Shown here piece by piece: positions 8,443 to 36,862 of a DNA stretch of 56,672 bases. Source of the stretch: an uncultured Bacteroidales bacterium (GTDB lineage Bacteria; Bacteroidota; Bacteroidia; Bacteroidales; UBA932). The notes under the pieces are model-generated. The model was given only the letters and a program-made list of their open reading frames with translations. It searched no databases and was not told the origin of the DNA. The stretch is taken from assembly GCA_944323345.1 (NCBI GenBank), contig CALUSC010000012.1, positions 1 through 56,672 of the forward strand, given 5' to 3'. The first letter of the stretch is position 1. Every line of letters begins with the position of its first letter. The translations under genes were made by a program, and so were the position numbers.

Positions 8443-8467
8443 TCCGCGTAACTTTTAAGACAACTTA

Positions 8468-8475: not shown

Positions 8476-8498
8476 ATCATTTTATCGAATAAATATCT

Positions 8499-8506: not shown

Positions 8507-8545
8507 CGGTCTTGAGCGTGTTTAATCTATTCATTGGCTTTTATA

Positions 8546-9580: not shown

Positions 9581-9601
9581 AACGCTTCAAATAAGGATGT
9601 C

Positions 9602-11134: not shown

Positions 11135-11153
11135 CCGGGATGCACCGGACAGT

Positions 11154-12863
11154 TTACAGTTTCGGTATCCTGATTTTCATCCCTGGTTTGATTTTGCTGC
11201 TTATGCCGTTGAAGTCCATTATGTTCTGGGCGCTGACACCAGGGTAGTTCTTCGCTATGAGATATAGCGAATCGCCGGATTTTACTGTATAGACCGTATA
11301 GTCGGCATCCATAGGTACCGAGGATTTGTGCGGCGGAGCAGGCTTGTCCGTATTCTGCTGTTTCCTTGTAGAGGATGATGCGGTAACCGGAGCGTTCCCT
11401 CCGCGGTAGATTACAAGCCTCTGGCCGATTCTGATATTGTCGCTCCGGAGATTGTTCCACCTCTTGATCTGACTGACTGTCACCCTGTAGCGGATGGCTA
11501 TTTTTCCGAGAACTTCTCCGCTTCTGACCCTGTGCACTATTCTTTCACCATCGCCTCCGTCCTTTATTTTCTTGATGACTACAGGGTTGAAGAATTCGTC
11601 TGCCTTGTATGCGTACAGAGAGTCTTCATGGTCGATGAACGAATTGGCGTAGTTATACGGAATACGCAGTATGTACTCTTTCTCGTTTCCTGGTATAATC
11701 TCATGTTTGTACTGCGGGTTCAGGTTCTTGAGATCTGCCAGGGGAATGCCGGCGAGTTCGCTCACCTGCTTGAAATGGAGCATCCTGTTTATCCTGAAAG
11801 TATCGACGTGGACAGGCATTTCCACTGCTGCAGGCTCTATTCCGTGCTCCTTGTAGTACGTCATGGTGTACAAGGCACCTACAAAGGCCGGGACATATCC
11901 TCTCGTTTCTCTCGGCAGGTACGGGTAAATGTCCCAGAAGGCCCGCTTGCCTCCGCTGCGTCTTATGGCGCGGTTCACGTTTCCTGCTCCGCAATTATAT
12001 GACGCTATTGCCAGATTCCAGTCTCCGAATATATTGTATGAATCCTTGAGGTATTCCGCAGCGGCATGCGCAGCCTTTACGGGATCCAGTCTTTCGTCCA
12101 CGAACGAGTCGATGCCCAAGCCGTATAGTTTGGCCGTACTGTACATGAACTGCCACATTCCCTTGGCTCCTGCCCTGGATACGGCAGTAGGGTTCAATGA
12201 TGATTCGATAACTGCCATAGCCTTGAGTTCCAGCGGTATGCCGTGTTCGTCGAAAATTTCTTCTATTATCGGCATGTAGTATGAGCACAGCCCCAGCACC
12301 TGGCCCATCTGCTTGTTCATTTTCTCTGAATACAGGATGATGTAGTTCCGGACTATGGAATTATATGGCAGATCGATGAAGGAATTCATGGCTTTTATCC
12401 TTTCGACATATACCGAGTCGGGCACATCGGATCTGAACCTGACCGTATCCATGTCGTATTCCATTTTGCCGGAATCGCTGATCTTCTGCTGCAGATACCA
12501 TATATTCAGCAGACTGTCCGATACTTCTGCATTATAATCCTCCGGATTCAGCCCGGCCGCGCTCTTGTCCTCGTTTTCGTCATACAGATCTTCGAGCATC
12601 TCCATGCCGAGACTGTCCAGACCGTTCATTTCTTCCCTGATACGGGCGATTTCGGCTCTCAGCGAATCGAGTTCCATCCGCAGGTCGCGGTTTTCCTTTA
12701 TCAGGTCGGACTTTTTGCGCGGAGCCTTTGCCGCATTCTCGACATCGTCCTTGTTTTCCCGCATGTCCGGCAATGCTTCCGCATGTCCGGCAGTGCATGC
12801 AATGATCAGCAATGATACAATCGTACAATATCTCAATATATCCATAGTCGGTAACATAATCAA
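11154..12863 (-). CDS. Membrane-bound lytic murein transglycosylase D-like protein with LysM repeats
   Basis: A 569-residue exported protein that cleaves the MurNAc-GlcNAc bond of peptidoglycan with 1,6-anhydro formation. In order: a signal peptide (an internal ATG at 12845 gives a cleaner one), a coiled-coil stretch at about residues 50-85, an SLT domain with catalytic Glu220 in AMAVIESSLNP, the SRAGAKGMWQFM and IASYNCGAGNVN motifs, and two C-terminal LysM domains (the second is YTVKSGDSLYLIAKNYPGV). This is the MltD layout. It is the last gene of the parA-parB-DUF5683 operon, starting one base after its neighbour ends, an arrangement that couples chromosome segregation and cell-wall genes. 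Confidence 0.9.
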   Translation of the reverse strand: MIMLPTMDILRYCTIVSLLIIACTAGHAEALPDMRENKDDVENAAKAPRKKSDLIKENRDLRMELDSLRAEIARIREEMNGLDSLGMEMLEDLYDENEDKSAAGLNPEDYNAEVSDSLLNIWYLQQKISDSGKMEYDMDTVRFRSDVPDSVYVERIKAMNSFIDLPYNSIVRNYIILYSEKMNKQMGQVLGLCSYYMPIIEEIFDEHGIPLELKAMAVIESSLNPTAVSRAGAKGMWQFMYSTAKLYGLGIDSFVDERLDPVKAAHAAAEYLKDSYNIFGDWNLAIASYNCGAGNVNRAIRRSGGKRAFWDIYPYLPRETRGYVPAFVGALYTMTYYKEHGIEPAAVEMPVHVDTFRINRMLHFKQVSELAGIPLADLKNLNPQYKHEIIPGNEKEYILRIPYNYANSFIDHEDSLYAYKADEFFNPVVIKKIKDGGDGERIVHRVRSGEVLGKIAIRYRVTVSQIKRWNNLRSDNIRIGQRLVIYRGGNAPVTASSSTRKQQNTDKPAPPHKSSVPMDADYTVYTVKSGDSLYLIAKNYPGVSAQNIMDFNGISSKIKPGMKIRIPKL

Positions 12864-21562: not shown

Positions 21563-21570
21563 TATTTTTG
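21563..21570 (+). promoter_or_regulatory. Promoter -7 box of the DsbD N-domain gene
   Basis: TATTTTTG (TAnnTTTG) 38 bases before the chosen ATG at 21608, separating this gene from the queuosine operon. Confidence 0.5.
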
Positions 21571-21607
21571 TCTCCATATCGGAAAACCGGTGAAACTAGC
21601 TAAAAAC

Positions 21608-22063
21608 ATGAATGTATTAAGATCTATTCTAATCAGCGCGCTCCTCATCGTCGCAGGAGCGGAAATGACAGCCCAGAACAGCTCTCCTGTCAGTTTTCAG
21701 GTGACACAGGAAAAAGTGTCCGATGATATGGTCCAGGTAATATTCAAGGCCGACATCGCCCCAGGCTGGCATGTATATTCCGTAGAAATGCCTGAAGACG
21801 GGCCCGTATCGGCTTCCGTAACGGTCGATTCGGCTGAAGGAGCCGAACCTGAAGGCGGCCTCGTGGCAGAGGGAAATGAAATCAGCATTTTTGACGGCAT
21901 GTTCGGAATGGATGTCCGTTATTTCGAAAACAGCGTGACATTTATCCAGAAGTTCAGGGTAAATTCACCGTCATGTCATGTCAAGGGCTATCTTGAATAT
22001 GCCGCATGCAATGATTCCATGTGCATTCCACCTTCCACGGTGGAATTTACGGTGGAATTATAA
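21608..22063 (+). CDS. Stand-alone DsbD N-terminal domain protein (exported)
   Basis: A 151-residue protein with a signal peptide (MNVLRSILISALLIVAGAEMTAQ) and one immunoglobulin-like DsbD alpha domain, the part of DsbD that hands electrons to periplasmic partners. The conserved region with W-HVYS near residue 50 and the active-site pair in AACNDSMCIPP are both present; the pair is CX4C, as I recall for Bacteroidota DsbD proteins, rather than the CX5C of E. coli. The membrane electron-channel and C-terminal thioredoxin domains of full DsbD are missing. It lies next to a locus with three TlpA-type proteins, which could be its partners (inference). An in-frame GTG at 21590 is an alternative start. 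It overlaps the convergent hydrolase gene by six bases. Confidence 0.8.
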   Translation: MNVLRSILISALLIVAGAEMTAQNSSPVSFQVTQEKVSDDMVQVIFKADIAPGWHVYSVEMPEDGPVSASVTVDSAEGAEPEGGLVAEGNEISIFDGMFGMDVRYFENSVTFIQKFRVNSPSCHVKGYLEYAACNDSMCIPPSTVEFTVEL

Positions 22064-23152
22064 CCCTATTTCATCAGCTATCCAGTCACAGACAGTTTCA
22101 AGTGCCTCGGCAGATACCGGGGCGCTTATTTTTGCATATTCATCCGGCATCCCGGTTTCGCATGGCAGCATCAGGTGGTTCACATCCGGAATAGCTACAG
22201 TCGTGACACGCCTGTTGTGTGCCAGATATTTCCTTACGTTCCCCAGATTCTGCGAACAGTTGACCATCACGTCTTTTGTGCCGTTTATGGCCAGCACCGG
22301 TATCCTCACCCGCGACAGGTATCGCCCGGGTTCATACCTGATGAAGAATCTGTACCAGGGGGAAGTGGCCTGTATCGCAAACATGTATACAGGATATCTG
22401 AAGTGATCGTCTTCAGGACGAATGCCGAGTTCCCTCATTCTGGCGTCGTCCTTCGCTTTCCAATTTTCATAAGCTTCGAAAAGTTTGCCGGAAAGAACGG
22501 TGCTGTCGGAATCGGCATATTCATACGCCGTCCGGAACATTATTCCGTTGATCTCGTCGAACCTTTGTCTGTTCAGATCCGTAATTCCGGGAGTCGATGC
22601 CACTATGTCTTGGTTCTGCCGGATGACGGAACTGAGCCCGTCTGTTATCAGCCCTGCCACTGATATCAGGAACTTTATGTCCCTGCATTCCGAAGCGGCT
22701 ATGGAACATGAAGCACCGCCTTCGCTATGTCCGAGCACGCCTATCCTGTTTTTCCGGATATCCTTTCTTGATTTAAGATATTCGACGGCTTCCATGACAT
22801 CCCGGGCGAAATCAGCGGTCGTCGCTTCTTCATATATTCCGCCCGATTCCCCGACACCTCTGTCGTCCACACGCAGGACTGCTATCCCGTGTTTGCCGAG
22901 ACAGTCGGCGAATTCCTTGTATATTTTGTGTCCAGCCATGGTCCCGTCACGGTCCTGTGGATAAGAGCCGGAGGCAATGACTACGGCCGTATGCCTTCCC
23001 GGAGCATCAGGCAGTGTCAATGTCGCTCCATACCGGAGTGAATCCTTCCCATGGAAAACCAGCCTTTCTTCGTGAAATCCGTTCCCTGTCCCGTCAGCCC
23101 ATACGCTGACGCAGGAGTATAGGATGCATATAAATGCGGACAAACGTTTCAT
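22058..23152 (-). CDS. Exported alpha/beta hydrolase (serine aminopeptidase S33-like)
   Basis: A 364-residue periplasmic alpha/beta hydrolase. It has a signal peptide (MKRLSAFICILYSCVSVWADG), an oxyanion-region VVIASGSYPQDRDG, the VLRVDDRGVGESGG segment, and the nucleophile elbow GHSEGG. A late Asp in LAINGTKDVMV and His in IPDVNHLML complete the triad. The nearest described families are dienelactone-hydrolase-like or S33 peptidase-like esterases, so it may hydrolyse esters or peptides. Its start overlaps the end of the large TlpA-domain gene (ATGA), placing it in the left arm of the SusCD-thioredoxin locus and suggesting it processes the same substrate. Confidence 0.8.
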   Translation of the reverse strand: MKRLSAFICILYSCVSVWADGTGNGFHEERLVFHGKDSLRYGATLTLPDAPGRHTAVVIASGSYPQDRDGTMAGHKIYKEFADCLGKHGIAVLRVDDRGVGESGGIYEEATTADFARDVMEAVEYLKSRKDIRKNRIGVLGHSEGGASCSIAASECRDIKFLISVAGLITDGLSSVIRQNQDIVASTPGITDLNRQRFDEINGIMFRTAYEYADSDSTVLSGKLFEAYENWKAKDDARMRELGIRPEDDHFRYPVYMFAIQATSPWYRFFIRYEPGRYLSRVRIPVLAINGTKDVMVNCSQNLGNVRKYLAHNRRVTTVAIPDVNHLMLPCETGMPDEYAKISAPVSAEALETVCDWIADEIGL

Positions 23153-25161
23153 TTTCTTATTTCATTGATTATTATGCTGATTTCATCAGCCAATGCCGTC
23201 GGTGAGCCGTGATATCCTGTAGCAATCCAGCGGACATTCCCTTCGCCGTCAATAATCATCTTCTGCGGTATCCCTGAGAAATGGAATTGCTTTGCATAAT
23301 GGGAATAAACTGCCTGTCTTCTGCCTTTTTCATCCGGATTGTCGAGCAGGACCTGGAAATCATACCCTTTTTCTTCAATGAAATCCTTTATGACCTGAAC
23401 ATAATCTTTTCTGGTTTCCATGGTGGAAATGAAAAAGAAGTCTATATTCGGGTCGTCCTTGTATCTGTCTACAGCCATCTGCATTCCAGGCATGGCTGCC
23501 TTGCACGGCCCGCACCAGGTAGCCCAGAAATCGAGGACTATGATGTGTCCTTTGAGGTCTTTCATATCCACCGTGCCGCCTTCCAGTTTTTCCATGCTGA
23601 ACAGTTCTGCCGGAACATTTATCATGCTTGATATGAGAGCCGCTTTCTGAGCCTGCATCACGGCATCGGATTTCATGTCTTCCACATAGCCGTCGAAACC
23701 GGACTCGTCCCCGCCGTTTTTCAGGTATTCTTCTTTGAGCATGCCGAGCATTTCAGGTGTAGCCTGGTTGTCGGCTATGGCAGCTTTTATCCGGGCCAGA
23801 GCTTCATTTTCCCGGCCGTTCCTGCTGAGAAGCCTTGTGTAGTAATCGTTGAATCCGGCATCCCCGGTGCCGAAGTATCCTGACAGAGTGTCGGCAAGCG
23901 CCATGGCGTGGGCATGTCTCCCCGTTTCTTCCAGAATCTTGGAATAATCGAGACAGGCCTGACGGTTCGTGCTGTAGAAAAGATCTTTCCATTCATCGGG
24001 AGACCATACCATTTCGGCTTTTGTCCGCGGACGGGAAATCATTTCATCATAAATCATTGCAGCATAAGGGTACAGCTTTTCGGCAGATGCATCGCCTCTC
24101 ATATACGGTATCTGGATTATATGCCAGAAATATGTGGCCAGATTGCCGCGAGGGGACGCACCGAGATATTCTTCCAGTCTGGAATAGTCGTTCCGGCCGA
24201 TGATGGCACCATATATATACATGCGGAAAAGATTGCTGTAATAGTGTTCGAACATTCCGTCTTCAATGAAGGAATCCCTGAATTTTTCAGGCGGGAATCT
24301 CTTTATGAATTCTCTGAACCTGTCGTCAAAGCCTTCGTCATTCCCTGACATGAACAGTTCCCTTGCGGCCTTCTCCCGGAAAAATTCCCCGTCGGGATAT
24401 CTTTCAGCAAGTTCGTTTTCTATTTCAGCTTTCATCGTAGAGTCCGGAATGACTGAAGATACGAGCTGATGCGCTTTCATAAGCTGTTCCTCGTCGAGCC
24501 TGGAGTCTGCCTTGTCCTGATCCAGAATATTCCGCAGGATAGCCTTCATGTTCTCTTTTGATACTGTGGTGTCGCGGGACATGGCCATTGTGGCATACCA
24601 GAAAACGTTGTCCAGCTCCTGCGGCCAGTCACGCAGTTCGTAGTTTATCCACATGCGTATCACTTCATCGTCTTTCCTGTCGAATCCGGCTTTCTGAAGG
24701 GATGGGATTCCTGCCAGATCCTGGGTGTTCCTGCCTCTGAGCAGCCCCCATCCTATATTGGCCGAAGGCTTGTTCCGGCCGTTTGCGTCGAGAACATATT
24801 TGGCGTAACCGAATCCGGGACCTCCGACGTCCACAGTATCACGATCATAGAATTTCCACACTATAAGCGATGCCTGACCGGGAATCGCGAAGCGTGTGGC
24901 AAGTGTCCCGTCTTCGTCCTTTTCCAGTGTCATGTCTTCCGCTATCCAGCGGTAATCTTCCCAGCTGTAATATACTCCCCGGATATCTCCTTCGAGGAAT
25001 GACAGTTCAGGCCGGTAGCGGAGTGTGACCGTATCTCCTTCGGAGAATGTCTCCGGAGAGCATTCGCAGACGCTCTGGGCATCTGCATTGGCCGAGGCCA
25101 TGAATATCATGGCCAGGCCGATATAAAATTTCCCGTACATATTCATTTTCTGATATTGCAA
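23149..25161 (-). CDS. Large exported protein with C-terminal TlpA-type thioredoxin domain
   Basis: A 670-residue protein with a signal peptide (start at 25161, with alternatives at 25146 and 25140), a beta-rich N-terminal region to about residue 130, a helical TPR-like middle, and a C-terminal thioredoxin domain with active site WCGPC (Cys550 and Cys553). It should act as a periplasmic disulfide reductase or isomerase coupled to a substrate-binding front part. Its thioredoxin domain is clearly paralogous to that of the 472-residue protein at 31204: both have FWATWC, a GMQ-AV-KY stretch, SGIPQK and GY-GSP--L-DEIS. The gene diverges from susC across about 135 bases. Confidence 0.85.
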   Translation of the reverse strand: MQYQKMNMYGKFYIGLAMIFMASANADAQSVCECSPETFSEGDTVTLRYRPELSFLEGDIRGVYYSWEDYRWIAEDMTLEKDEDGTLATRFAIPGQASLIVWKFYDRDTVDVGGPGFGYAKYVLDANGRNKPSANIGWGLLRGRNTQDLAGIPSLQKAGFDRKDDEVIRMWINYELRDWPQELDNVFWYATMAMSRDTTVSKENMKAILRNILDQDKADSRLDEEQLMKAHQLVSSVIPDSTMKAEIENELAERYPDGEFFREKAARELFMSGNDEGFDDRFREFIKRFPPEKFRDSFIEDGMFEHYYSNLFRMYIYGAIIGRNDYSRLEEYLGASPRGNLATYFWHIIQIPYMRGDASAEKLYPYAAMIYDEMISRPRTKAEMVWSPDEWKDLFYSTNRQACLDYSKILEETGRHAHAMALADTLSGYFGTGDAGFNDYYTRLLSRNGRENEALARIKAAIADNQATPEMLGMLKEEYLKNGGDESGFDGYVEDMKSDAVMQAQKAALISSMINVPAELFSMEKLEGGTVDMKDLKGHIIVLDFWATWCGPCKAAMPGMQMAVDRYKDDPNIDFFFISTMETRKDYVQVIKDFIEEKGYDFQVLLDNPDEKGRRQAVYSHYAKQFHFSGIPQKMIIDGEGNVRWIATGYHGSPTALADEISIIINEIRK

Positions 25162-25171
25162 AATTTATGTA

Positions 25172-25179
25172 CAAAAATA
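25172..25179 (-). promoter_or_regulatory. Promoter -7 box of the leftward TlpA-hydrolase transcript
   Basis: Minus-strand TATTTTTG, 10 bases upstream of the first ATG at 25161, so the leader is very short or translation starts at a later ATG (25146 or 25140). Confidence 0.5.
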
Positions 25180-25212
25180 GATTTTTCTGTTCCAAGATTT
25201 ACAGAATTTCTC

Positions 25213-25220
25213 TAATTTTG
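25213..25220 (+). promoter_or_regulatory. Promoter -7 box of the SusCD transcript
   Basis: Plus-strand TAATTTTG, which leaves a leader of about 70 bases before the SusC ATG at 25298. The divergent promoter lies 33 bases away, so one regulator could control both arms. Confidence 0.6.
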
Positions 25221-25297
25221 TGGAATGTGCGCACCCCAAAGCATCTTCATGAAAGAAGATGCGGTTTATTATTAACAACTTAACAAATTACAGACTT

Positions 25298-28200
25298 ATG
25301 AAAGCATTCTTATCAGCATTGCTTCTGTCAGCAATGGCTGTTTCTTTGCCGATGAATGCGGCAGGAGTCCGGACTGAAAATCTTCAGCGGTCCGTCCCCG
25401 ACGATGTTTCTCCCAGAAAAGGACATATTATAGGTAAAGTCCAGGACAGGAACGGTGTGGCTCTTCCGGGAGTGGCAGTCATGATCAAGGGTACAAGTAT
25501 CGGTACGGAGACCAACACGGTCGGAAACTATGATCTTGACCTGAAAGGCAGGTCATCGGGAGTGATAGTCTTCTCATGTCTCGGCTATTCTATTCAGGAG
25601 ATAAATTATACCGGACAGACCCACATGAACGTGACTCTCCAGGATGATGCCCAGGCTCTGAATGAAATCGTAGTGACCGGTTACGGCAACTACAACCGCA
25701 GCGAATATGTAGGAGCTGTCACCCAGATCAAGGCGGAAGATATTCTCGTGCCGGGCGAGTTGACCATAGACCAGATGCTCCAGGGTGTCGTTCCCGGCAT
25801 GTCGGTCATAAATACGACCGGTAAAGTCGGAGGTACGCCCAAGATCAGGATCAGAGGTACATCTACCATACTCGGAAACCAGGAGCCGCTGTGGGTAGTC
25901 GACGGTGTCATCCAGACTAACCCGACACCGATCCCTAATGACGCCAGTCCAATATCCGGTGATATGGAAGACCTGGCGCAGACTGCAGGTAACGCCATTT
26001 CATGGTTGAATCCTGCGGATATCGAGAGCATTACCGTCCTCAAGGATGCTGCTTCCACAGCCATCTACGGTTCACAGGCGGCGAACGGTGTGATCGTGAT
26101 TACAACGAAAAAAGCTTCGGGAGGGGGTCTTTCAGTTAATTACAGCGGGAGCGTGAATGTCAGCCAGAGACCTACTTACGGGCTTTATGACATGATGAAT
26201 TCCCAGGAGTGGATGCTGTTCCAGCAGGAAATGTACGAGGACAGGAACCAGTATACCCAGGCTATACTCCCAGTCGGATACGGAGGTCTGATCCAGAGGC
26301 TGCAGAACAAGGAAATTACTGTCCAGGAATTCGAGCAGGAATTCCGCAAGATGGAAAACATGAATACGGACTGGTTCGACATCCTATTCCGTTCGGCTGT
26401 CAGCCATACTCACAATGTCAGCGTGTCTGCAGGAGGCGAGAAGGTGCAGAGCCGTTTTTCCATCGGTGTCAATGATACGCAGGGAGATGCCAAAGGCAAT
26501 GACCAGCTCCAGTTCACGGCAAGTTCCAATACGACATACCGTCCGAACACTAAACTGTCCATTGATCTCTCGATGAACGGCAGTTACAGAAAGGTCAATG
26601 ACTTCGCGTTCGGAGTCGATCCGTATGACTATGCCATGAATACTTCCAGGGCAATTCCCGCCTATAATGAGGACGGCAGTTATTTCTATCATGAGAAATA
26701 TGGTCTTACCAGCCACTCCATACCTCAGAAGAATTACTATAACTATAATATTCTGAATGAGATAGAGAATACAGGCGCCGAGACTGTCACCCATACTTTC
26801 CAGACAAACCTCAGTATCAGATGGGATTTCCTCAGGCATTTCCAGTTTCAGGGCGATGTGAGCATGTCGCTGGCTTCTGTCAACATGAAGTCATGGGCTA
26901 CGGAGTATTCGAATTACATCACATCCATAAGAGGCTATGAATACGGTTCGGTATTGCCGAATTCCGCAGAGGAACTGGCCAGTCCGCTTCCTTACGGAGG
27001 ACTTCTCAATACCCAGAGCAACAGTACGTTCAACTGGTCTGTCAGGGCAGCATTCGTTTATAATAACACCTTTAAGGAAAAACATCGCCTGACCATGAAT
27101 CTGGGATTCCAGATGACCTCGAACAAAATCGACGGTTTCACGAACATGAGATACGGTTATCTGAAATACAGGGGAGAGGCTTATGCCAACGTGCCGACAT
27201 CCATTACTCCTGTGACAGGTGCCAATTCTCAGGAAACTACGCTTCACGAGGACATGAAGAACGGTTCCAGCGTCGTCAATACGATATCCAACCAGTTAAG
27301 TGAATATTTCACCGCTGTCTACAGTTATGATGACCGTTATGTGGTGAACATGAATGCGCGTCTGGACGCATCCAACAGATTCGGACAGGACCAGAATAAA
27401 AGATTCAACCCGACATTTTCACTTGGCGGCAAATGGAGGATAGGAGAGGAACCGTTTATGGATTTCGCTGAAAACTGGTATGACATGTTCGATATCTCTT
27501 TCGCTTACGGATGGAGGGGAAATGCGGTGACTGCCGTATCTCCGTATCTGATAGCCCAGGACGGAGGTATCCACGATTATTTCCATCAGTATTATCTGAC
27601 CATCAAGTCTCTTCCTTACCCTGACCTGGGATGGGAGCGTACGCGTGACTGGAATGCCGGCGTATCTTTCTCGTTCTTCAAGGGAAGGCTGAGCGCCGAC
27701 TTCAACTATTACGACAAATATTCGTCCGTATTGTCCTCTCATGATATTCCTGTAGAATACGGAGACCTGAATGCCTATATCGACGGTTCCATCATGAAGA
27801 ACCGGGGATATGAGTTCATCATCAGCGCCACGCCTGTCCGCACCAAGGACTGGACCTGGTCTTTGTCATTCAATACCAGCCGCGAACACAATACGGTGGA
27901 GAACAATAACCGCATCAATTCTCCTGAAGACTATCTGACCGGTGCGGCCATCGTGCCGGGTGAGTCATACGGTACTTTCTGGGCATTCGACTTTACAGGT
28001 CTGGACCACGAAACAGGACATCCTACATTCAGTAATATGGATGAGACTCCGGAAGACTTCAGGGAATTCCTGGTAAAAGCCGGATGTACGGAGCCGGATA
28101 TATACGGAGGTATCAATACTTCCCTGAGGTACAAGAATCTGCATCTGCGTGCAGCGTTCGCCATTTCACTCGGAGCCCAGGGCTGGCTTCCGTCATATTA

Positions 28201-28633
28201 TGCAACCAGCGGTATGCCGAGACCGGAAGTAAACGTGCCGCGTTATATGTTCGACAGATGGCGTGAGCCGGGAGACGAGTTGTATACGGATATTCCTGCC
28301 ATCCCGGAAGGAAATACGAATGCCACTTATGTTACATTGTATTACGGTGATGACGGTACTTCACAGTACAGCACTTCCATCTATTCGATGTATAACCAGT
28401 CTACGGCCCGCATCGCCAATACGGATTTTATCCGCTGCCGTTCCATTTCCCTGCAGTATGACCTCCCTAAGGATTTTGTGAACAGGATAGGGATGATCAA
28501 TGCGTACGTCACTGCCACTCTGACCAATCCGTTTGTGGTGGCATTCGACAAGAGATGGGAAGGACGTGATCCTGAGACCATGTCCTGGCCGACAAGACGC
28601 ACTTTCTCCATTTCATTGAGCCTCAGTTTCTGA
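25298..28633 (+). CDS. SusC/RagA-family TonB-dependent outer-membrane receptor
   Basis: A 1111-residue outer-membrane transporter. In order: signal peptide, an N-terminal carboxypeptidase-regulatory-like domain (GKVQDRNGVALPGVAVMIKGT...VFSCLGY), the SusC TonB-box region LNEIVVTGYG near residue 120, the plug with VDGVIQT and TVLKDAASTAIYGSQAANGVIVITTKK, and a long beta barrel ending in SISLSLSF. It imports a ligand captured by the SusD partner, powered by TonB-ExbBD. I start at the ATG at 25298 because it gives a proper signal peptide (MKAFLSALLLSAMAVSL); the ATG at 25259 does not. With proteases and thioredoxins next door, RagAB-like peptide uptake is more likely than glycan uptake. Confidence 0.95.
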   Translation: MKAFLSALLLSAMAVSLPMNAAGVRTENLQRSVPDDVSPRKGHIIGKVQDRNGVALPGVAVMIKGTSIGTETNTVGNYDLDLKGRSSGVIVFSCLGYSIQEINYTGQTHMNVTLQDDAQALNEIVVTGYGNYNRSEYVGAVTQIKAEDILVPGELTIDQMLQGVVPGMSVINTTGKVGGTPKIRIRGTSTILGNQEPLWVVDGVIQTNPTPIPNDASPISGDMEDLAQTAGNAISWLNPADIESITVLKDAASTAIYGSQAANGVIVITTKKASGGGLSVNYSGSVNVSQRPTYGLYDMMNSQEWMLFQQEMYEDRNQYTQAILPVGYGGLIQRLQNKEITVQEFEQEFRKMENMNTDWFDILFRSAVSHTHNVSVSAGGEKVQSRFSIGVNDTQGDAKGNDQLQFTASSNTTYRPNTKLSIDLSMNGSYRKVNDFAFGVDPYDYAMNTSRAIPAYNEDGSYFYHEKYGLTSHSIPQKNYYNYNILNEIENTGAETVTHTFQTNLSIRWDFLRHFQFQGDVSMSLASVNMKSWATEYSNYITSIRGYEYGSVLPNSAEELASPLPYGGLLNTQSNSTFNWSVRAAFVYNNTFKEKHRLTMNLGFQMTSNKIDGFTNMRYGYLKYRGEAYANVPTSITPVTGANSQETTLHEDMKNGSSVVNTISNQLSEYFTAVYSYDDRYVVNMNARLDASNRFGQDQNKRFNPTFSLGGKWRIGEEPFMDFAENWYDMFDISFAYGWRGNAVTAVSPYLIAQDGGIHDYFHQYYLTIKSLPYPDLGWERTRDWNAGVSFSFFKGRLSADFNYYDKYSSVLSSHDIPVEYGDLNAYIDGSIMKNRGYEFIISATPVRTKDWTWSLSFNTSREHNTVENNNRINSPEDYLTGAAIVPGESYGTFWAFDFTGLDHETGHPTFSNMDETPEDFREFLVKAGCTEPDIYGGINTSLRYKNLHLRAAFAISLGAQGWLPSYYATSGMPRPEVNVPRYMFDRWREPGDELYTDIPAIPEGNTNATYVTLYYGDDGTSQYSTSIYSMYNQSTARIANTDFIRCRSISLQYDLPKDFVNRIGMINAYVTATLTNPFVVAFDKRWEGRDPETMSWPTRRTFSISLSLSF

Positions 28634-28652
28634 TGATCTAAAAATTACTTGC

Positions 28653-30182
28653 ATGAAAACTATATTATATATCATATCGGCATTTTCCGGAATTCTGCTT
28701 GCAGGCGGCTGCGGCTTTCTTGAAGAAGAATCGCAGAGTGAAATGATACCCCGGACTACGGAGGATTTTTCCGAACTTCTCATTGGCTCCGGTTATCCGG
28801 ACGCCACAAGTCCTGATATTTCCATACTTACCTATCTGGATGATGATTGCGCCCAGATGCTGAACTTGTCGAAATCCATGTCGAATTGGCAGACAGGCGG
28901 AGTGGATGTCTTTGCACCTGATGAATATGCAGGTGAAGAACAGACTGTTACGGTATCCCCATATTATCAGTGGCAGCCGGATATGGTGGATTTCAACGGC
29001 TTCCAGGAACGTATAAACGAAAATCCTTCGGAGACCATGTACTACCAGTTCTATCAGAAGATAAAGGGATGCAATGCAGTACTTGATCTGATCGATTCCG
29101 CCATAGGAAGCGACGAGCAGAGGGATAGGGTAAAAGCCGAGGCCCTGGCCATACGCGCCCTGCTTTACTTCCAGTTGGTCAATATATACGGTGAACCGTA
29201 CAACTATAACAAGGAATCTCTTGGAGTGCCTCTGAAACTGGACGCGAACCTGAGCAACGAGCCTATCGCACGTTCTACAGTGGCGGATGCTTACGAAAAT
29301 GTCATAGTCCCGGATCTGGTGGAAGCTGCCAGGCTTATGGACCCGCTTCCTTTCGTGGAGCATAACTACAGGATAAACCAGCCTGCTATCCATATCATCC
29401 TGTCCCGTGTCTATCTGTACATGGAGCGCTATCAGGACTGCGTGGATGAGGTGGAAAAGGCTATGGATTTCGGAATCCGAGTGATGAACCTCCTTACGGA
29501 ATTCAATCCTGCCGATGCGACTATGTACGGTTTCGCCCCGTTCACATATTCGAATCCTGAAGTGCTCTGGATGTTCGGGCCGTCTCCGCGTGTGGAGAAT
29601 TCCGGTTACAAGCCGGGACTCAATCCTGATTTCCAGGCCCTGTGGGACAGTACGAATGATCTCAGATACACCATGTTCAAACTTTCTGCACCGGCTGCGA
29701 CCAGTACTACGGATTATGATAACAGCAATTTCTATATCACCAAGCCATATTCTTCCATGGAGCTGTGCCAGCTGGTCCGTACTTCGGAAGCGGTGCTGAA
29801 TGCCATGGAAGCTAATGCGCTTCTCGGAAATGAAACGGAAGCCCTGCAGGCCCTGAATGATTTCCGGGCTACCAGAATCACAGGGTATACGGCCGAATCA
29901 CTGGCCGGAGAAGAACTTCTGAAAGCCATAAGGACTGAAAGACGCAAGGAATTATGCTATGAAGGACATCGCTGGTTCGATCTCAGGCGTCAGGGAATGC
30001 CGGAAATCAGGCATACGTACAGGCCTGAGCAGGGCGGACAGGATTATGTCTATACTCTCAGGAAAAACGATCCGATGTACACTCTGCCGCTGCCGAGCTG
30101 TATTCTGGAGCAAAACAGCGCACTGGTACAGAATGAGAGCCGTAACAGCGGTGTACGTTCAGGTGAACTGGTTACAGAATAG
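28653..30182 (+). CDS. SusD/RagB-family substrate-binding lipoprotein
   Basis: A 509-residue surface lipoprotein that caps the SusC barrel and binds the imported ligand. A lipoprotein signal peptide ends in the lipobox LAGGC (Cys20). The alpha-helical TPR framework of the family follows, with RALLYFQLVNIYGEPYNYNKESLGVPL near residues 170-195 and the C-terminal SusD signature LKAIRTERRKELCYEGHRWFDLRRQG. It starts 19 bases after susC, in the same transcript. The ligand cannot be inferred from sequence alone. Confidence 0.95.
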   Translation: MKTILYIISAFSGILLAGGCGFLEEESQSEMIPRTTEDFSELLIGSGYPDATSPDISILTYLDDDCAQMLNLSKSMSNWQTGGVDVFAPDEYAGEEQTVTVSPYYQWQPDMVDFNGFQERINENPSETMYYQFYQKIKGCNAVLDLIDSAIGSDEQRDRVKAEALAIRALLYFQLVNIYGEPYNYNKESLGVPLKLDANLSNEPIARSTVADAYENVIVPDLVEAARLMDPLPFVEHNYRINQPAIHIILSRVYLYMERYQDCVDEVEKAMDFGIRVMNLLTEFNPADATMYGFAPFTYSNPEVLWMFGPSPRVENSGYKPGLNPDFQALWDSTNDLRYTMFKLSAPAATSTTDYDNSNFYITKPYSSMELCQLVRTSEAVLNAMEANALLGNETEALQALNDFRATRITGYTAESLAGEELLKAIRTERRKELCYEGHRWFDLRRQGMPEIRHTYRPEQGGQDYVYTLRKNDPMYTLPLPSCILEQNSALVQNESRNSGVRSGELVTE

Positions 30183-30200
30183 TCAAAAACCCAAGGTGAA

Positions 30201-31181
30201 ATGAAAACACGAAATATAATATCATTATTTGCAGCCATTTCAAGCATAATGGCGACAGTATCCGTTGTCTCCTGCAGCAAGGATGTGCCTGTGGGTGATC
30301 CGGTAGAGATAACAGGCGGTTATGTGCTGCCTCAGAGCGGAGCATCCGACGAGGACAATGCCAGAATTATGGAGATTTACGAAAAGTGGAGTTCATACGT
30401 ATTGTATGATGTCGATTCCGTCGATGTTTACTGGAAACAGATATCCGGAAACGCTTCAAGCGGCGGAATGGTCTATATCTTCAAGGAAGGTGATCCAAAA
30501 TATGTGGGTGATATGCTTGACTATCTCGACGAGATTTGGTGGCATTATTTCCCGGATGAATTCCTGCAGAAAGGAGGCATTCCGTTCCGCGTTTATCTGG
30601 TGGAAGAGTATTATTCATATAGGGATTGGGGCGGCGGCCAGACTTCTGCCCCTCAGTACATGGATTATCAGATCAATGACAATTCGATAATGCTGAGCGG
30701 AATGAGTCAGGTAGCCTCTTACGATGCCGATACGAAGCGTGCCAAGAAGGTCGCTCTGTTGAGTGATCTGTTCACTAACTGGATTTCCAAATCCATCATC
30801 GGGACCCCTTCCGAGTTTTATAATGTTTCCGATTATAATACCGAACCTGAAATGACTACCGATGACGGATATTCCTATTACTATACCGACGAGCAGCTCA
30901 AAGCGCTCCGGAACCGCGGCTTTATCCCGAAATACAATTCCTACGGTTATTCTGTATATGACGAGATTTATATGGCATATTCTGGCGGAACGAGCTCCTG
31001 GACTTATAATGACCCGCGAAGCAATGACTTCAATTACTATATTTCCCAGATTTTCCACGCGACGGAAGAGCAGGTTGCAGATTTCCTGCAATATGAAACC
31101 GTGAAGACCAAATGGAATATCATTTTGGATTATTATAAGGACAATTACGGTATCGATCTCAGGGCTATGGCTACTGAGTGA
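30201..31181 (+). CDS. Surface lipoprotein resembling Mx1 zinc peptidases without the zinc site
   Basis: A 326-residue lipoprotein (lipobox VVSC, Cys25). Its layout resembles the putative zinc-binding metallopeptidases that often follow SusD in Bacteroidota: a YEKWSSYVLYDVDS opening, the paired segment TDEQLKALRNRGFIPKYNSYG, and the C-terminal KWNIILDYYKDNYGIDLRAM. The HExxH helix expected in the middle is absent; the corresponding stretch reads ALLSDLFTNWISKSI. So it is probably a non-catalytic relative, perhaps a ligand-binding accessory lipoprotein of the SusCD complex. The family link is from motif memory and needs a profile search. It is co-transcribed with susD. Confidence 0.6.
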   Translation: MKTRNIISLFAAISSIMATVSVVSCSKDVPVGDPVEITGGYVLPQSGASDEDNARIMEIYEKWSSYVLYDVDSVDVYWKQISGNASSGGMVYIFKEGDPKYVGDMLDYLDEIWWHYFPDEFLQKGGIPFRVYLVEEYYSYRDWGGGQTSAPQYMDYQINDNSIMLSGMSQVASYDADTKRAKKVALLSDLFTNWISKSIIGTPSEFYNVSDYNTEPEMTTDDGYSYYYTDEQLKALRNRGFIPKYNSYGYSVYDEIYMAYSGGTSSWTYNDPRSNDFNYYISQIFHATEEQVADFLQYETVKTKWNIILDYYKDNYGIDLRAMATE

Positions 31182-31203
31182 TCTTATTTTCAGATTTACG
31201 TAC

Positions 31204-32622
31204 ATGAAGAAAACAATTGTATTGACGGTACTGGCTGTGGCTTTGGCTTCATCAGCCAGTACATCTTTTGCTCAGGATGTCCAGACTGACGAGAGCAGGC
31301 TGGCGCAAGAATATTATTCTGCACTTTACGGTAAAAAAGATACTTTGAAGGCCGAAGGTCTGAAGTCCGAAATCCTTGCAAAGTATCCGAAAGGAGCATT
31401 CGCCCGCAGGCTTTCCGCCGAGGCCGTGAACATGGCGTCCGATTCTCTGGATTATATCAGGCGTGCGGATGAATTCAGGAACGGCTTCCCGATTTCCGAA
31501 TGGATAGAAAATCCTGACGGACAGGGATTTGTCTATATGAATTTTTACAGGAACTACGCCAGGATGCTGTATGCATCCCGTCAATGGGACAAACTTCGCG
31601 AAATCATGCCGGAGATGACCTATTCGATGCTGTCGGATCTTTATGCTCACGGGCCTATGTTTTATATCATGAAAGCTCCCGTGGATCCGCGTGAGTATGT
31701 CGACATTGCCCAGGATATCATCAGTGAGATGTGGCGGAAGAAAGACATGGATATCGACATGTATTCCGCTACGGCGGAAACAAGAAGCGGTGCGGAGTCC
31801 ATGAAATATTATCTGGCCGTCCAGACGGAAGTCCTGCAGCGCAGCGGCCGTCCTGAAGATGCCGTGGAATGCATGGAGAAAATTTGTCCGGAAGACAGAT
31901 ACAACCAGTATCCCGCGGGAAATGAAGCTTATGTAGCGGCTCTCGAGTCTATGGACAGAAATCAGGAGGCGACAGATGCGATTATCGGTTCGGCTGCAGT
32001 AGGGCGCCTGACTCCTGTCCTGTTTTCGAAATTACGGAAGTACTATCTTTCATCGGATCCGAAGCCGGCACCTACATTCGATGATTATTATTCATCTTTG
32101 AAAACAGACAAGGCCAGGGAAAATCTCCGGGCAGCCGTACAGGCGGGATTGATGGATGAACCGTTCGATACCTTTTCACTTACCTCAATTGACGGGAAGA
32201 TTGTCGATTATTCGACATTCGGACCGGATGATATCGTGGTCCTGGATTTCTGGGCTACATGGTGCGCTCCGTGTATAGCGGCATTGGCCGGCATGCAGCT
32301 GGCCGTAGAAAAATATGCCTCTGACGAGCATGTGCATTTTTACTTTATCTGTACTCAGGATGAACCGGACAAGGACAGGGTGGAGCGTATCTGGGCGAAA
32401 GGAAAATATCATGATATGACTGTCCTGTTCGACGAGTGCCGGGATGGCGGCAAGGAGTATGACAAAGTCTACAGAAGCATTATCCACGGCACATCCGGAA
32501 TTCCCCAGAAAGCCGTCCTGAAAGACGGCCGGGTACGTTATGTCGCCGAGGGATACGGCGGAAGTCCGAGCGAACTTATGGATGAGATATCCGCTGTAAT
32601 AGAAATTCTTAAAACCGAATGA
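31204..32622 (+). CDS. Exported TlpA-type thioredoxin-domain protein
   Basis: A 472-residue periplasmic protein: a signal peptide (MKKTIVLTVLAVALASSASTSFAQD), a helical repeat-like region to about residue 320, and a C-terminal thioredoxin domain with active site WCAPC (Cys354 and Cys357). It should reduce or rearrange disulfides. The thioredoxin domain is the paralogue of that in the 670-residue protein on the divergent arm, which ties both transcripts to one process. It lies in the SusCD transcript, 22 bases after the preceding lipoprotein gene, and its stop overlaps the S41 protease start. Confidence 0.85.
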   Translation: MKKTIVLTVLAVALASSASTSFAQDVQTDESRLAQEYYSALYGKKDTLKAEGLKSEILAKYPKGAFARRLSAEAVNMASDSLDYIRRADEFRNGFPISEWIENPDGQGFVYMNFYRNYARMLYASRQWDKLREIMPEMTYSMLSDLYAHGPMFYIMKAPVDPREYVDIAQDIISEMWRKKDMDIDMYSATAETRSGAESMKYYLAVQTEVLQRSGRPEDAVECMEKICPEDRYNQYPAGNEAYVAALESMDRNQEATDAIIGSAAVGRLTPVLFSKLRKYYLSSDPKPAPTFDDYYSSLKTDKARENLRAAVQAGLMDEPFDTFSLTSIDGKIVDYSTFGPDDIVVLDFWATWCAPCIAALAGMQLAVEKYASDEHVHFYFICTQDEPDKDRVERIWAKGKYHDMTVLFDECRDGGKEYDKVYRSIIHGTSGIPQKAVLKDGRVRYVAEGYGGSPSELMDEISAVIEILKTE

Positions 32623-33935
32623 TTATGAAACCGTACTTTTTCCTGGCGGCAGCCGTCATGGCGTTTGGTATCCCTTTTAAGGCCGAAGCACAGAAATCGC
32701 CTGAGGAGAAACTGAATATGACCATGTACGCGATAATGAACATGTATGTGGATACTGTGGACAAGGCTTCTTTCGTGGATGATGTGATAGCGAGGACGGT
32801 CAAGACTCTGGATCCTTTTTCCGCTTATCTTACTCCTGAAGAGGTCAGGGCCAATGAGGCTGTGCTGTTCGGGCCTGTGGCGATGGGTGCGGATTCGCTT
32901 TCAGTACAGGCAGGAGGTTCTTCACGGGCACGTGCTGTCCGCTCTTCATATATGGTGGATGACAGGACGGGGTATGTATGTCTGACTGTATTTTCCGGTT
33001 CTGCTCCTGAAGAATTCCGTTCTGCCGTAGCCGGATTGAGAAAAGCCGGCATGAAAAATCTTATCCTCGATTTGCAGGGAAATCCCGGAGGATTCGTCGA
33101 GTCTGCCGTGGAGATTGCGGATGAATGTCTGTCAGGCGAAAAGACCGTAGTCACGACATCTGGCGCACATGTACCTGCCAATTCGGTCATGACACGTAAC
33201 GAGGGCTGTTTTGAAAACGGCAGATTGGTCCTGCTGGTGAACGGACAGACCATGTCTGCCGCCGAGATTCTTTGCGGGGCCCTCAGAGACTGGGACAGGG
33301 CTGTGCTTGTCGGCAGCCGCACCTATGGGAAAGGGCTTATCCAGGAGACTTTGCCATTCGAGGACGGATCTGCTCTGAGGATTACCGTAGCAAGATATCT
33401 GACGCCGTCAGGAATGATTATCCAGAAACCCTATGAAGGATATGGCAGAGTCTATGCTGATACTGCAGCGACATACAGGACTCTGTCAAATGGCCGGCAG
33501 ATGAAAGCCTGCGGAGGAATTGATGCCGATGTGGAGGTGATGCAGGATACATCTTTTATGACTTCCTGGTATTATAATCTTACATTCAACGGATTCCAGA
33601 AAACAATAGTTTCTTCGTACATCGACAGGAACAGAGATGCGCTTTTGAAGGAATTCAGGACTTCCGATTCGTTTTTCAGAAAGTTCCATGGAGAAGACGG
33701 GATGTTGGCTGAACTTGTCGATGCGGCTGATGCTGCAGGCTTGTCAGTATCCGAGGTTGAGTACGACAGGACTGCACCTGCATTGAAAACACAGCTCAAG
33801 GCATTGCTCGCCCGGGAACTTTATCCTGAAGACCTTAATATATATTACAGAATACTCAATACTGCCAGTCCTTTGATGATACGCGCAGTCGAAATTATCA
33901 ACAGTGACGGTTATGACGATATTTTAGGACTATGA
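32619..33935 (+). CDS. Exported S41 (tail-specific protease-like) peptidase lacking a PDZ domain
   Basis: A 438-residue periplasmic serine peptidase of the CtpA/Tsp family. A signal peptide is followed by the N-terminal helical region (LDPFSAYLTPEEV), then the catalytic core with DLQGNPGG, catalytic Ser213 in GQTMSAAEI and Lys238 in TYGKGLIQ. The usual PDZ domain between the helical region and the core is replaced by about 50 residues with no PDZ pattern, so substrate selection probably differs. The start overlaps the previous stop (ATGA; a second ATG lies at 32625). Within this locus it probably cleaves the imported substrate (inference). Confidence 0.85.
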   Translation: MIMKPYFFLAAAVMAFGIPFKAEAQKSPEEKLNMTMYAIMNMYVDTVDKASFVDDVIARTVKTLDPFSAYLTPEEVRANEAVLFGPVAMGADSLSVQAGGSSRARAVRSSYMVDDRTGYVCLTVFSGSAPEEFRSAVAGLRKAGMKNLILDLQGNPGGFVESAVEIADECLSGEKTVVTTSGAHVPANSVMTRNEGCFENGRLVLLVNGQTMSAAEILCGALRDWDRAVLVGSRTYGKGLIQETLPFEDGSALRITVARYLTPSGMIIQKPYEGYGRVYADTAATYRTLSNGRQMKACGGIDADVEVMQDTSFMTSWYYNLTFNGFQKTIVSSYIDRNRDALLKEFRTSDSFFRKFHGEDGMLAELVDAADAAGLSVSEVEYDRTAPALKTQLKALLARELYPEDLNIYYRILNTASPLMIRAVEIINSDGYDDILGL

Positions 33936-35059
33936 TGTCTCGCTGGTTTTCTATTCTTTTTTTTGTCGCGGCATTGCATGCATGCAGCCCGGATTTTTCC
34001 CTTGATGCAGAAATCGGTTCGGACGCTTATGATGGTGTGACGGTATATATGATCAGAAAGCATCCTGTCGAGCGTTCTGAAGACTTTGTCATGGACAGTA
34101 CGGTCATTGCCGGAGGCCGCTATTCCTTTTCTTGTCCGGTGACGGACGGGGCTTTCATTGCCGGTTTCGAACTGGCACCGAAGGATACTGTAGGACATAC
34201 GGTCTTTTATTATGATCTTCCTGATGCCAGCTGTGTGGTGGAGCCGGGCAAGGTCAGTCTGGTATATACGGAATACGGTGTTTCAGTGTCAGGTACGCCG
34301 TGGAACGAGGATTATGAACGGCTGGTGTTGGCTCCTTCGAGGCGGGCACGTGCCAGTTCTGCTGAATATGTGGACAGGACTTCTCTTTCAGATTCCGTAA
34401 GCGTCTTCTATGAGCGTGTCAAGCCTGATTTCGTGTCATTTATACGGAAATATGCTGGTACCGGCCCTGGAATTACCCTGTTCTTCAGCAGGAGCAGACA
34501 GTTTTATGCCGATTCCCTGTATGATGAACTGTGCAGTTCGGTGCCTCAGGAGTATATTGCCATGGAGCTGGCCGGAGAAAAGCGTAGGAGTGCGGAAATG
34601 GAGGCTGAAGCTGCTGCGAAAAAAATGATAAGAGTCGGGAATCCGTATGTGGATTTCATTTCCAGGACTTTTGACGGGGAGACTGTCAGACTGTCTGATT
34701 TCGTCCGCCCGGGACATGTGACGCTTCTGGATTTCTGGGCTTCATGGTGTCGTCCGTGCCGGGCGGAAATACCGGAGCTGAAACGGCTGTATGAAAAATA
34801 TCATGAAGCCGGTCTGCAGATTATCAGCGTATCTTTGGATACTGACAAGAATGCGTGGAGCGGGGCAGTGGCGGAAGAAAACATGCCATGGCCCCAATGG
34901 TCTGTCCTGGATGGATTCGAGAGCAGTTCTGCAAAGGCTTATGCGGTGCATTCTATCCCGTTTGTCGTACTGATAGATGCGGACGGGAAGATTGCGCTGG
35001 TGAATATCCACGGTCAGTCCCTGGAAGACAAGATCAGGGAATCAGTAGCTGTTCCATGA
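33932..35059 (+). CDS. TlpA-family thiol-disulfide oxidoreductase lipoprotein
   Basis: A 375-residue lipoprotein (lipobox LHAC, Cys18) with an N-terminal beta-rich DUF4369-like domain, a helical linker and a C-terminal TlpA thioredoxin domain with active site WCRPC (Cys273 and Cys276) and the cis-proline segment SIPFVVLIDADG. This is the common Bacteroidota layout for periplasmic thiol-disulfide reductases. It ends the SusCD transcript, starting with an ATGA overlap, and its tail overlaps the convergent nitroreductase gene by 18 bases. It is the third thioredoxin of the locus but less like the other two. Confidence 0.85.
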   Translation: MMSRWFSILFFVAALHACSPDFSLDAEIGSDAYDGVTVYMIRKHPVERSEDFVMDSTVIAGGRYSFSCPVTDGAFIAGFELAPKDTVGHTVFYYDLPDASCVVEPGKVSLVYTEYGVSVSGTPWNEDYERLVLAPSRRARASSAEYVDRTSLSDSVSVFYERVKPDFVSFIRKYAGTGPGITLFFSRSRQFYADSLYDELCSSVPQEYIAMELAGEKRRSAEMEAEAAAKKMIRVGNPYVDFISRTFDGETVRLSDFVRPGHVTLLDFWASWCRPCRAEIPELKRLYEKYHEAGLQIISVSLDTDKNAWSGAVAEENMPWPQWSVLDGFESSSAKAYAVHSIPFVVLIDADGKIALVNIHGQSLEDKIRESVAVP

Positions 35060-35872: not shown

Positions 35873-36862
35873 TCATCGGATATACTCATAAGCTATCTCC
35901 GAAATACGCGCTATCGTTTTTTCGCACTCCTCAGGGCCGCATCCGGCTCCGGTAATGAAAACCGCTATGGAATAATGCCTCCCGTCAGGCAGCTCGACTA
36001 TACCGATGTCGTTTACAGCCATGATTTTCCCGTCAGGATCCATGTCTCCGGTGCCGGTCTTGTGGGCAATCGTTGTTCCGTCGTCAGGAATCGGGGCAGG
36101 AATCCTTTTCTGTCCCGTATGGCATCCGCTCATGGTTTTCCATACGAATTCCGAATATTCATCTGAATGGCGCATCCTGTAGAATTTTTCCAAAAGCGAT
36201 ACCGCCGACAGGGGAGTGCTCCAGTTGTCATGGCATAGGGCCTGGTTTTCATGCATCTCCGCTTCTGTATATCTGATCCTGAAACCGTCTGTTCCCAAGC
36301 TTCTGACGTATGAATCCGTATACTCAGGTCCGCCGGTCAGTCCGAAAAGGATATCGCATGCATTGTTGTCGCTCCAGACCAGCGTATATTCCAGCAATTC
36401 TTCCCATGTGAATACTCCGCCGTCGGGGAATGAATCCCGTAAAGGACTCCAGGTATTTTCCTGAAGCTGCCCTTTTGCGACCTCGATAGCGGAAGAAAGC
36501 TCTGTTCCTGAATCTTTCAGCCATCCGCACACGGCCAGAGCCTGATGAAACTTGAATACGCTCAGCATCGGAAATCTCCAGCCGTTGTCTGTTTCCCGCT
36601 CCCGGACACTGCCGGCGGCAATACATAAGGTATCACTGCCATATATCAGGCCGATACCGATACAAGCATCGACCGAATCGGCAGCTGCTTCCATTCTGCC
36701 GCGCATTTCTTCCAGATTGAGCCGGCTGCCATGACCGGAATATGACTTATAGAGCCATCCGGCAATGATCCCTATTGCCGCGGCTGCGGCAATATTCAAG
36801 ACTGCGAGAACGATGGCTTTATTCCTGGACGGATTTTTCCGGTATCTTTTCATATCTTCCAT
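35873..36862 (-). CDS. Class A beta-lactamase, subclass A2 type
   Basis: A 329-residue serine beta-lactamase. The active-site motifs are SVFK (Ser101, Lys104), SDN (Ser164-Asn166), a Glu-rich omega-loop stretch TEAEMHEN near residue 200, and KTG (Lys268-Gly270). The extended omega-loop and the DNWSTPLSA segment are characteristic of the Bacteroidota-associated A2 group (CfxA, CepA, CblA, PER relatives). The N terminus has a charged stretch and then one long hydrophobic segment (residues 15-37) without a clear cleavage motif, so the enzyme may stay membrane-anchored. Whether it confers resistance cannot be told from sequence. It has its own promoter, back to back with the next gene's. Confidence 0.88.
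   Translation of the reverse strand: MEDMKRYRKNPSRNKAIVLAVLNIAAAAAIGIIAGWLYKSYSGHGSRLNLEEMRGRMEAAADSVDACIGIGLIYGSDTLCIAAGSVRERETDNGWRFPMLSVFKFHQALAVCGWLKDSGTELSSAIEVAKGQLQENTWSPLRDSFPDGGVFTWEELLEYTLVWSDNNACDILFGLTGGPEYTDSYVRSLGTDGFRIRYTEAEMHENQALCHDNWSTPLSAVSLLEKFYRMRHSDEYSEFVWKTMSGCHTGQKRIPAPIPDDGTTIAHKTGTGDMDPDGKIMAVNDIGIVELPDGRHYSIAVFITGAGCGPEECEKTIARISEIAYEYIR

Follow-up and report, generated by a model that had tools for sequence, protein, structure and literature searches.

A divergent SusCD locus with thioredoxin-fold proteins, peptidases and an HExxH-less Mx1-like lipoprotein in an uncultured Bacteroidales bacterium

Introduction

What does a SusCD uptake locus import when it carries no sugar enzyme? 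Such loci have been poorly explained so far, and the question is raised by a 56,672-nucleotide stretch of DNA (hereafter the window; contig CALUSC010000012.1 of assembly GCA_944323345.1, forward strand, positions 1 to 56,672) from an uncultured Bacteroidales bacterium of the UBA932 lineage. In the window, eight genes for exported proteins form a divergent locus, as judged from open reading frames (ORFs) with Pfam and NCBIfam matches: two run leftward (the TlpA-type protein TlpA-670 and an alpha/beta hydrolase) and six rightward (SusC, SusD, an Mx1-like lipoprotein termed pMx1, TlpA-472, an S41 peptidase and TlpA-375). An original prediction, made from the sequence alone, had listed these eight genes as a system of thioredoxins and proteases; all eight ORFs are located where it placed them and the family assignments hold, but the list overlooked a gene for a stand-alone DsbD N-terminal domain, which is the ninth member of the locus. 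The reading we favour, in which we place about even confidence, is that this SusCD locus takes up peptides or small proteins in a TonB-dependent way and has a periplasmic line of reduction and proteolysis of its own.

Results

The adjacent homologues of susC (25298–28633, plus strand; TIGR04056, 2.8e-188) and susD (28653–30182, plus; PF14322 and PF07980) make this a SusCD locus by definition. As predicted, no glycoside hydrolase was found among the eight window genes, and Pfam and NCBIfam detected no carbohydrate-active enzyme among these genes and one flanking gene on each side. A scan of 20 window proteins revealed no linked regulator of the extracytoplasmic function (ECF)/anti-sigma, hybrid two-component system (HTCS) or SusR type. 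With neither a sugar enzyme nor a linked regulator detected in the scanned proteins, the locus is not a polysaccharide utilization locus.

Three proteins of the locus have a TlpA/ResA-type thioredoxin fold with a CxxC motif. TlpA-670 (23149–25161, minus) matches AhpC-TSA in Pfam (6e-17), and its AlphaFold2 model (predicted local distance difference test score, pLDDT, 85.9) consists of an Ig-like domain, a TPR-like helical solenoid and a ResA-like thioredoxin domain with the motif WATWCGPC, the two N-terminal fold names being read from the secondary structure of the model. ResA was the top Foldseek match of the model (7.2e-9), all 50 rows shown were thioredoxin-fold proteins, and the CxxC motif was invariant in 10/10 sequences. 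TlpA-472 (31204–32622, plus; AhpC-TSA, 5e-8) has an N-domain followed by a thioredoxin domain with WATWCAPC, and shares 30% identity with TlpA-670 over the C-terminal two-thirds of the latter. TlpA-375 (33932–35059, plus; AhpC-TSA, 2.3e-18) is a lipoprotein with WASWCRPC and a DUF4369-like N-domain, whose match to DUF4369 (9e-4) lies below the Pfam cut-off. The active sites thus read CGPC, CAPC and CRPC. Beyond the CxxC motif, TlpA-670 has no invariant Cys (4 orthologs), TlpA-472 has two and TlpA-375 has one that is not the lipid-bearing residue. These domains are 3 of the 12 AhpC-TSA domains of the genome and lie within 11.8 kb; the chance of any such trio is ~0.019. The case against chance rests on the conservation of the whole set and not on this clustering.

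The ninth gene (21590–22063, plus; PF11412, 1.4e-11) is convergent with the hydrolase gene and encodes an exported protein of 157 residues that consists of the N-domain only, lacking the membrane and C-terminal periplasmic domains that define DsbD. Its C140 and C145 are invariant in 7/7 sequences, full DsbD proteins included, and the gene adjoins that of the hydrolase in L036, L037 and L039, the only three relatives with contigs extending that far. A full DsbD is also encoded in the same genome on another contig.

Two enzymes accompany these proteins. The exported hydrolase (22058–23152, minus) is S33/S15/S9-like by Pfam; S143 (in GHSEG), D294 and H326, which from family knowledge we take to be the catalytic triad, are invariant in 8/8 sequences, and its top NCBIfam match is the esterase EstD (2e-28; 99.6 bits, the cut-off being 600). 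The S41 peptidase (32619–33935, plus; PF03572, 2e-42) has a Ser-Lys dyad of S213 and K238, which are 25 residues apart and invariant in 5/5 sequences. This spacing is known from Prc and CtpB. As had been predicted, Pfam detected no PDZ domain in the protein, a domain otherwise expected in a C-terminal processing peptidase.

pMx1 (30201–31181, plus) by itself has no direct match in Pfam or NCBIfam, and its link to PF15890 comes only through profile comparison. When aligned with hhalign to nine PF15890 proteins, the close orthologs of pMx1 gave a probability of 98.1 (E 1.3e-13) and the wide family 99.6 (E 3e-24), whereas TlpA-472, compared as a control, reached only 1.1. Direct PF15890 matches were obtained for 5 of 13 pMx1 relatives (E up to 1; best 7.1e-5), and a PDB search with the pMx1 profile returned one weak PF15890 match (0.0043) and one likely chance match. 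The zinc-site motif HExxH was present in 8/9 PF15890 rows but in 0/22 pMx1 rows, and in a tree a branch with 100/99 support sets all pMx1 proteins apart, although the tree contains long branches and is rooted only at the midpoint. The Mx1-like nature of the protein thus stands on profile comparison. By its motif it is not an active protease; since HExxH is lacking, pMx1 is, from its sequence, probably a binding subunit rather than a peptidase. A genuine PF15890-family protein elsewhere (L215:1360-2361) is likewise without HExxH, in a SusCD locus (L261) that has no thioredoxin match. The model of pMx1 built from its single sequence had too low a confidence (pLDDT 37) to be used.

The original prediction had proposed seeking the gene order in other genomes, and it recurs in four others of the genus, with much of the set also present in a more distant genome, G672. 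Our searches scored only a small number of candidates in each genome (2 to 8 in the count runs), so the tallies given here and below are lower bounds. TlpA-472 was found in 5 of 200 genus genomes, its own included, the other four copies being 65–71% identical. Gene by gene, identity across these four genomes was 41–89%, the lowest value belonging to a TlpA-375 cut by a contig end. All nine genes occur in the same order and orientation in L036 and L037; L038 and L039 belong to one genome (G189), in which a contig end falls between the two operons and the hydrolase ORF is partial, and in L040 (G258) contig ends cut SusC and TlpA-375. In L037 the SusC gene is split over two reading frames (8425-11783). 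In this comparison, no flanking ORF of these relatives' loci matches any window protein outside the gene set, and simple synteny with the window therefore does not account for the conservation; L037 and L038 do have in common the gene that adjoins TlpA-375.

Among 344 genomes of the order, full-length TlpA-472 was found only in G672 besides the source genome (E up to 1e-40), and a TlpA-670-type protein was present in G606. In G672, which belongs to another family, the genes ECF-FecR-SusC-SusD-pMx1-TlpA472-TlpA670-S41 form a single run in one direction (L043). The SusC homologue of G672 has an STN domain; none was detected by Pfam in the window SusC, and the window type has neither ECF nor FecR. 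A contig scan with TlpA-472 gave mostly generic TlpA proteins among the matches listed (80 loci) and no close relative of the whole locus in the neighbourhoods inspected, those of 10 of the 80.

We then compared the company of SusCD genes that lie beside a pMx1 gene. Eighteen locus types were counted, namely 20 places minus three without SusC/SusD (L251, L253 and L254) plus L005, the window type being counted once with the four other genus genomes merged into it. A thioredoxin-fold protein was present in 14 of the 18, a peptidase in 10 and either in 16. The reference proteins for these counts were drawn from the test loci. The controls, nine SusCD loci with genuine HExxH-clade PF15890 proteins in four related genomes, had no thioredoxin match and one peptidase match by phmmer, the latter an S8 peptidase in L260; they were scanned less fully than the test loci, the Pfam check covering ten downstream proteins in six of the nine. 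Fisher tests of pMx1 against control loci gave p values of 1.5e-4 for thioredoxins, 0.042 for peptidases and 1.7e-4 for either, which are optimistic because the loci are related. The proposed company of thioredoxins and proteases with SusCD pairs of this kind is thus borne out, and a few relatives even fuse the two functions. ECF or FecR matches were found in 11 of the 18 locus types and none in 7, so that the window type has probably lost these regulators but is not alone in this; the absence of an ECF regulator, part of the original prediction, is correct for the window locus and does not extend to such loci as a typical trait.

In L005 (12616-15819) and L041 (14759-17932), one protein combines by Pfam a thioredoxin domain with DPPIV_N and S9 domains. 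Both fusions end ECF-FecR-SusC-SusD-pMx1-metalloprotease loci, the metalloprotease being a Met-zincin by Pfam in L005. In L046 (14664-15959) an aspartyl-protease-like domain (8e-5, just under the Pfam cut-off) is joined to a thioredoxin domain (5.8e-24), and L047 (3663-4958) encodes a homologue of it (2e-97), assigned by homology only; these two fusions sit in SusCD-pMx1-subtilase loci. Because thioredoxin domains are fused to proteases in these proteins, a shared substrate of the two activities is suggested.

TlpA-670 relatives were found in 50 of 395 genomes of the phylum, its own included (E up to 1e-50), and we fetched 40 places, the higher-scoring of 61 outside the source genome. Eleven of the 40 lie near SusC or a related TonB receptor, all 11 with ECF and FecR; among them SusD is present in 7, a full DsbD in 5, S9 in 5, M16 in 6 and the hydrolase in 2. 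Full-length DsbD stands beside TlpA-670-type and TonB-receptor genes in L052 (Pfam) and in L174, L175, L195, L197 and L200 (phmmer). Beside SusCD and TlpA-670, phmmer with Pfam-checked L050 references found S9 peptidases in L169-L173 and M16 peptidases in L169-L174, and the pair of TlpA-670 and hydrolase adjoins SusCD in L049, L051, L052 and L136, with a full DsbD added in L052. TlpA-670 was tried as a marker of SusCD loci and rejected, since the other 29 of the 40 places have no SusC match. The loci L194, L195, L197 and L200 have ECF, FecR, a TonB receptor and TlpA-670 without a SusD match, three of the four with a full DsbD; from these, the link between TlpA and DsbD may be older than SusCD.

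Within the window locus, adjacent genes overlap by 4 bp or are spaced by 18-22 bp, which is consistent with two operons. The divergent promoter region (25162–25297) had been described as a 135-bp intergenic region with -7 boxes on both strands; the gap is 136 bp from TlpA-670 to the likely SusC start at 25298, which was picked by eye from the start in L036 (the longest SusC ORF begins at 25259). TAnnTTTG is stated, in the portion of PMC9723704 available, to be the sigma-A -7 box consensus for Flavobacterium. The boxes are there, TATTTTTG on the minus strand (25172-25179) and TAATTTTG on the plus strand (25213-25220), and another TATTTTTG box precedes the DsbD N-domain gene (21563-21570), but the motif is not enriched across the window (32 observed against 25 expected). 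By eye, the corresponding gaps of relatives have -7 boxes on both sides in L036 and L037, on the rightward side in L038 and on the leftward side in L039. A scan for sigma-70 type promoters was set aside (22 sites against 20 expected). Upstream of SusC lies an inverted repeat, GCATCTTCATGAAAGAAGATGC (25241-25262); the corresponding intergenic region has a GTCTTCATGAAGAC palindrome in L037 and L039, and L036 is without TTCATGAA.

As for export, signal peptides judged by eye end before Gln in TlpA-670, TlpA-472, the S41 peptidase and the DsbD N-domain protein (such a Q-rule is described in the accessible text of PMC10653852), and lipoboxes were recognized by eye in SusD, pMx1 and TlpA-375. Close to the locus end, the window encodes a beta-lactamase-like protein (35873-36862, minus; PF13354, 9e-25), and 6 kb downstream of the locus lies a DPPIV/S9 peptidase gene (41309-43378, plus).

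Discussion

The favoured reading builds on the gene identities, the conservation of the set, the intact active-site residues, the loss of HExxH, the association of thioredoxins and proteases with their fusions, and the linkage to DsbD. In terms of substrate class, localisation, electron flow and order of steps it would run as follows. At the cell surface, SusD and a catalytically dead pMx1 would capture a peptide or polypeptide, which SusC would import. In the periplasm, the three TlpA proteins with ResA-like domains, of which two have long N-terminal scaffolds and one is a lipoprotein, would reduce its disulfides and open the chain, and the S41 peptidase and the S33/S9-like hydrolase would then cut the opened chain. 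Reducing power would come from the separate full DsbD of the genome, with the stand-alone N-domain as an extra shuttle. Disulfide-bonded peptides as the substrate are our inference from this combination of genes.

RagAB and BT2263-BT2264 are reportedly peptide-loading SusCD transporters. The window locus resembles them in its SusC/SusD pair and in its lack of a glycoside hydrolase, and its SusC matches the PDB entries of RagA (6sli and 6sml) and BT_2264 (5fq6); it differs in adding TlpA, DsbD-domain, S41 and hydrolase genes and an apparently dead Mx1-like lipoprotein. The window locus may work like RagAB-type peptide uptake.

Several observations weigh against the favoured reading. The solved SusC nearest to that of the window is 8ypu (6.9e-89), with RagA and BT_2264 scoring lower, the PDB search with SusD gave no RagAB or BT_2264 entry, and the top solved match of SusD is named a putative sugar-binding protein. 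The SusCD-pMx1 loci are interrelated, so that the Fisher values overstate their independence, and in 2 of the 18 types (L249 and L255) the run contains no thioredoxin and no peptidase, an S41 match ~7 kb off on the other strand in L255 having been left uncounted. The thioredoxin-S9 fusion is rare, with a whole-length match only in G630 (295 order genomes, two candidates each). At 29 of the 40 TlpA-670 places there is no SusC match, some stretches ending at contig ends, and the TlpA-670 family therefore also has other jobs. In Pedobacter, an alpha-L-fucosidase gene (L048:14385-15902, minus) lies just past a SusCD-TlpA670-S9 run on the opposite strand, which could be a sign of a glycan or glycopeptide link there. 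The S41 protein could serve in processing rather than digestion.

A further point of this kind leads to a different explanation, namely that the TlpA proteins and the DsbD domain service cysteines of SusD, SusC or the hydrolase, the imported substrate being free of disulfides. SusD has four invariant non-lipid Cys (5 orthologs), and the reductases could therefore serve the uptake proteins instead; SusC has two invariant Cys (4 orthologs) and the hydrolase four (three close orthologs). However, pMx1 and the S41 peptidase have no invariant non-lipid Cys, the HExxH-clade SusCD loci of the four related genomes have no dedicated thioredoxin (0/9) although folding is needed there too, and the thioredoxin-protease fusions point towards a common substrate. 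We consider this explanation unlikely.

Somewhat less probable still, and on a par with each other, are two explanations that change the substrate. In the first, a rival to be taken seriously, the locus would serve under iron limitation and might import or degrade iron- or haem-carrying proteins, the peptidases and reductases freeing the metal. In the accessible part of PMC5429918, the Riemerella anatipestifer genes B739_0096-0103, which include SusC, RagB and a 'substrate import-associated zinc metallohydrolase', appear in an iron-limitation table with values of 3.06-3.81, which we take as log2 fold changes, and a solved protein matched by the PF15890 profile has the same 'substrate import-associated zinc metallohydrolase' name. 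That name, however, is one given to PF15890 proteins, and pMx1 of the window falls in the HExxH-less clade; the scan of 20 window proteins yielded no haem or siderophore gene, and in the Bacteroides thetaiotaomicron iron table, within the part of PMC10434189 available, the DUF4302 gene BT3961 and the nearby BT3958-59 pair have negative values. Alternatively, the substrate might be an ester, lipopeptide, glycopeptide or other small molecule, with the hydrolase acting as an esterase and the S41 protein as a housekeeping processing peptidase. The EstD match of the hydrolase, the name of the nearest solved SusD relative, the company of the hydrolase with TlpA-670 without an S41 match in L049, L051, L052 and L136, and the fucosidase that adjoins the L048 run all speak for it. 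It has to be set against the unrelated protease families in the relatives' runs (S41, S9, M16, S8, aspartyl protease and Met-zincin) and the lack of a glycoside hydrolase among the eight window genes.

Returning to the favoured reading of peptide uptake with reduction and proteolysis, we compared the locus with other known systems. A Flavobacterium psychrophilum SusCD pair (THC0290_2100/2101) has been proposed to import oligopeptides together with collagenase and Dcp2, according to the portion of PMC9723704 available; it is alike in that SusCD is proposed to act with peptidases on peptides and, compared by description only, differs in that no thioredoxin or DsbD gene is named in that portion. 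The SusCD-PF15890-DUF4302 loci share with the window a SusC-SusD pair followed by a lipoprotein of the PF15890 superfamily. They have HExxH in 8/9, DUF4302 proteins in all six loci scanned and thioredoxins in 0/9, whereas in the window type HExxH is missing and thioredoxins and peptidases are added. The ECF-FecR-SusC-SusD-TlpA670 loci that continue with S9 and M16 or with the hydrolase and DsbD (L169-L175 and L048-L052) have SusCD, TlpA-670, the hydrolase or peptidases, and in some cases DsbD in common with the window, but they have no pMx1 match, carry ECF and FecR, and run in one transcription direction.

The branch from DsbD to CcmG/ResA is a thiol reduction branch that serves cytochrome c maturation. 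The window locus has the corresponding parts, a ResA-like CxxC domain and a DsbD N-domain that retains both cysteines, but here the thioredoxin domains are carried by large scaffolds, and their setting is a locus for outer-membrane uptake instead of cytochrome c maturation. No description of SusCD-thioredoxin-peptidase loci was found in the open-licence PMC literature, judged by titles and abstract openings.

A broader proposal, which we offer tentatively and hold to be rather doubtful, is that these loci represent a widespread and unrecognised class of SusCD systems. DsbD would supply electrons, which the free N-domain would hand on to ResA-like reductases on scaffolds, and these would reduce an imported disulfide peptide, for example a defensin or a cystine-rich bacteriocin, before or during periplasmic proteolysis. 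With reduction and proteolysis shifted to the inside, the surface Mx1 metallopeptidase would have given up catalysis and become a capture subunit, and the loss of HExxH would mark the class.

The locus is related to the familiar sugar-uptake systems but belongs to a kind that has received little study. An HExxH-less Mx1 gene together with thioredoxin and peptidase genes, which are sometimes fused, is a marker that could sort such loci from glycan loci by sequence. With this marker, the way in which Bacteroidota deal with disulfide-bonded peptides, for example bacteriocins or peptides of host defence, would become directly testable.

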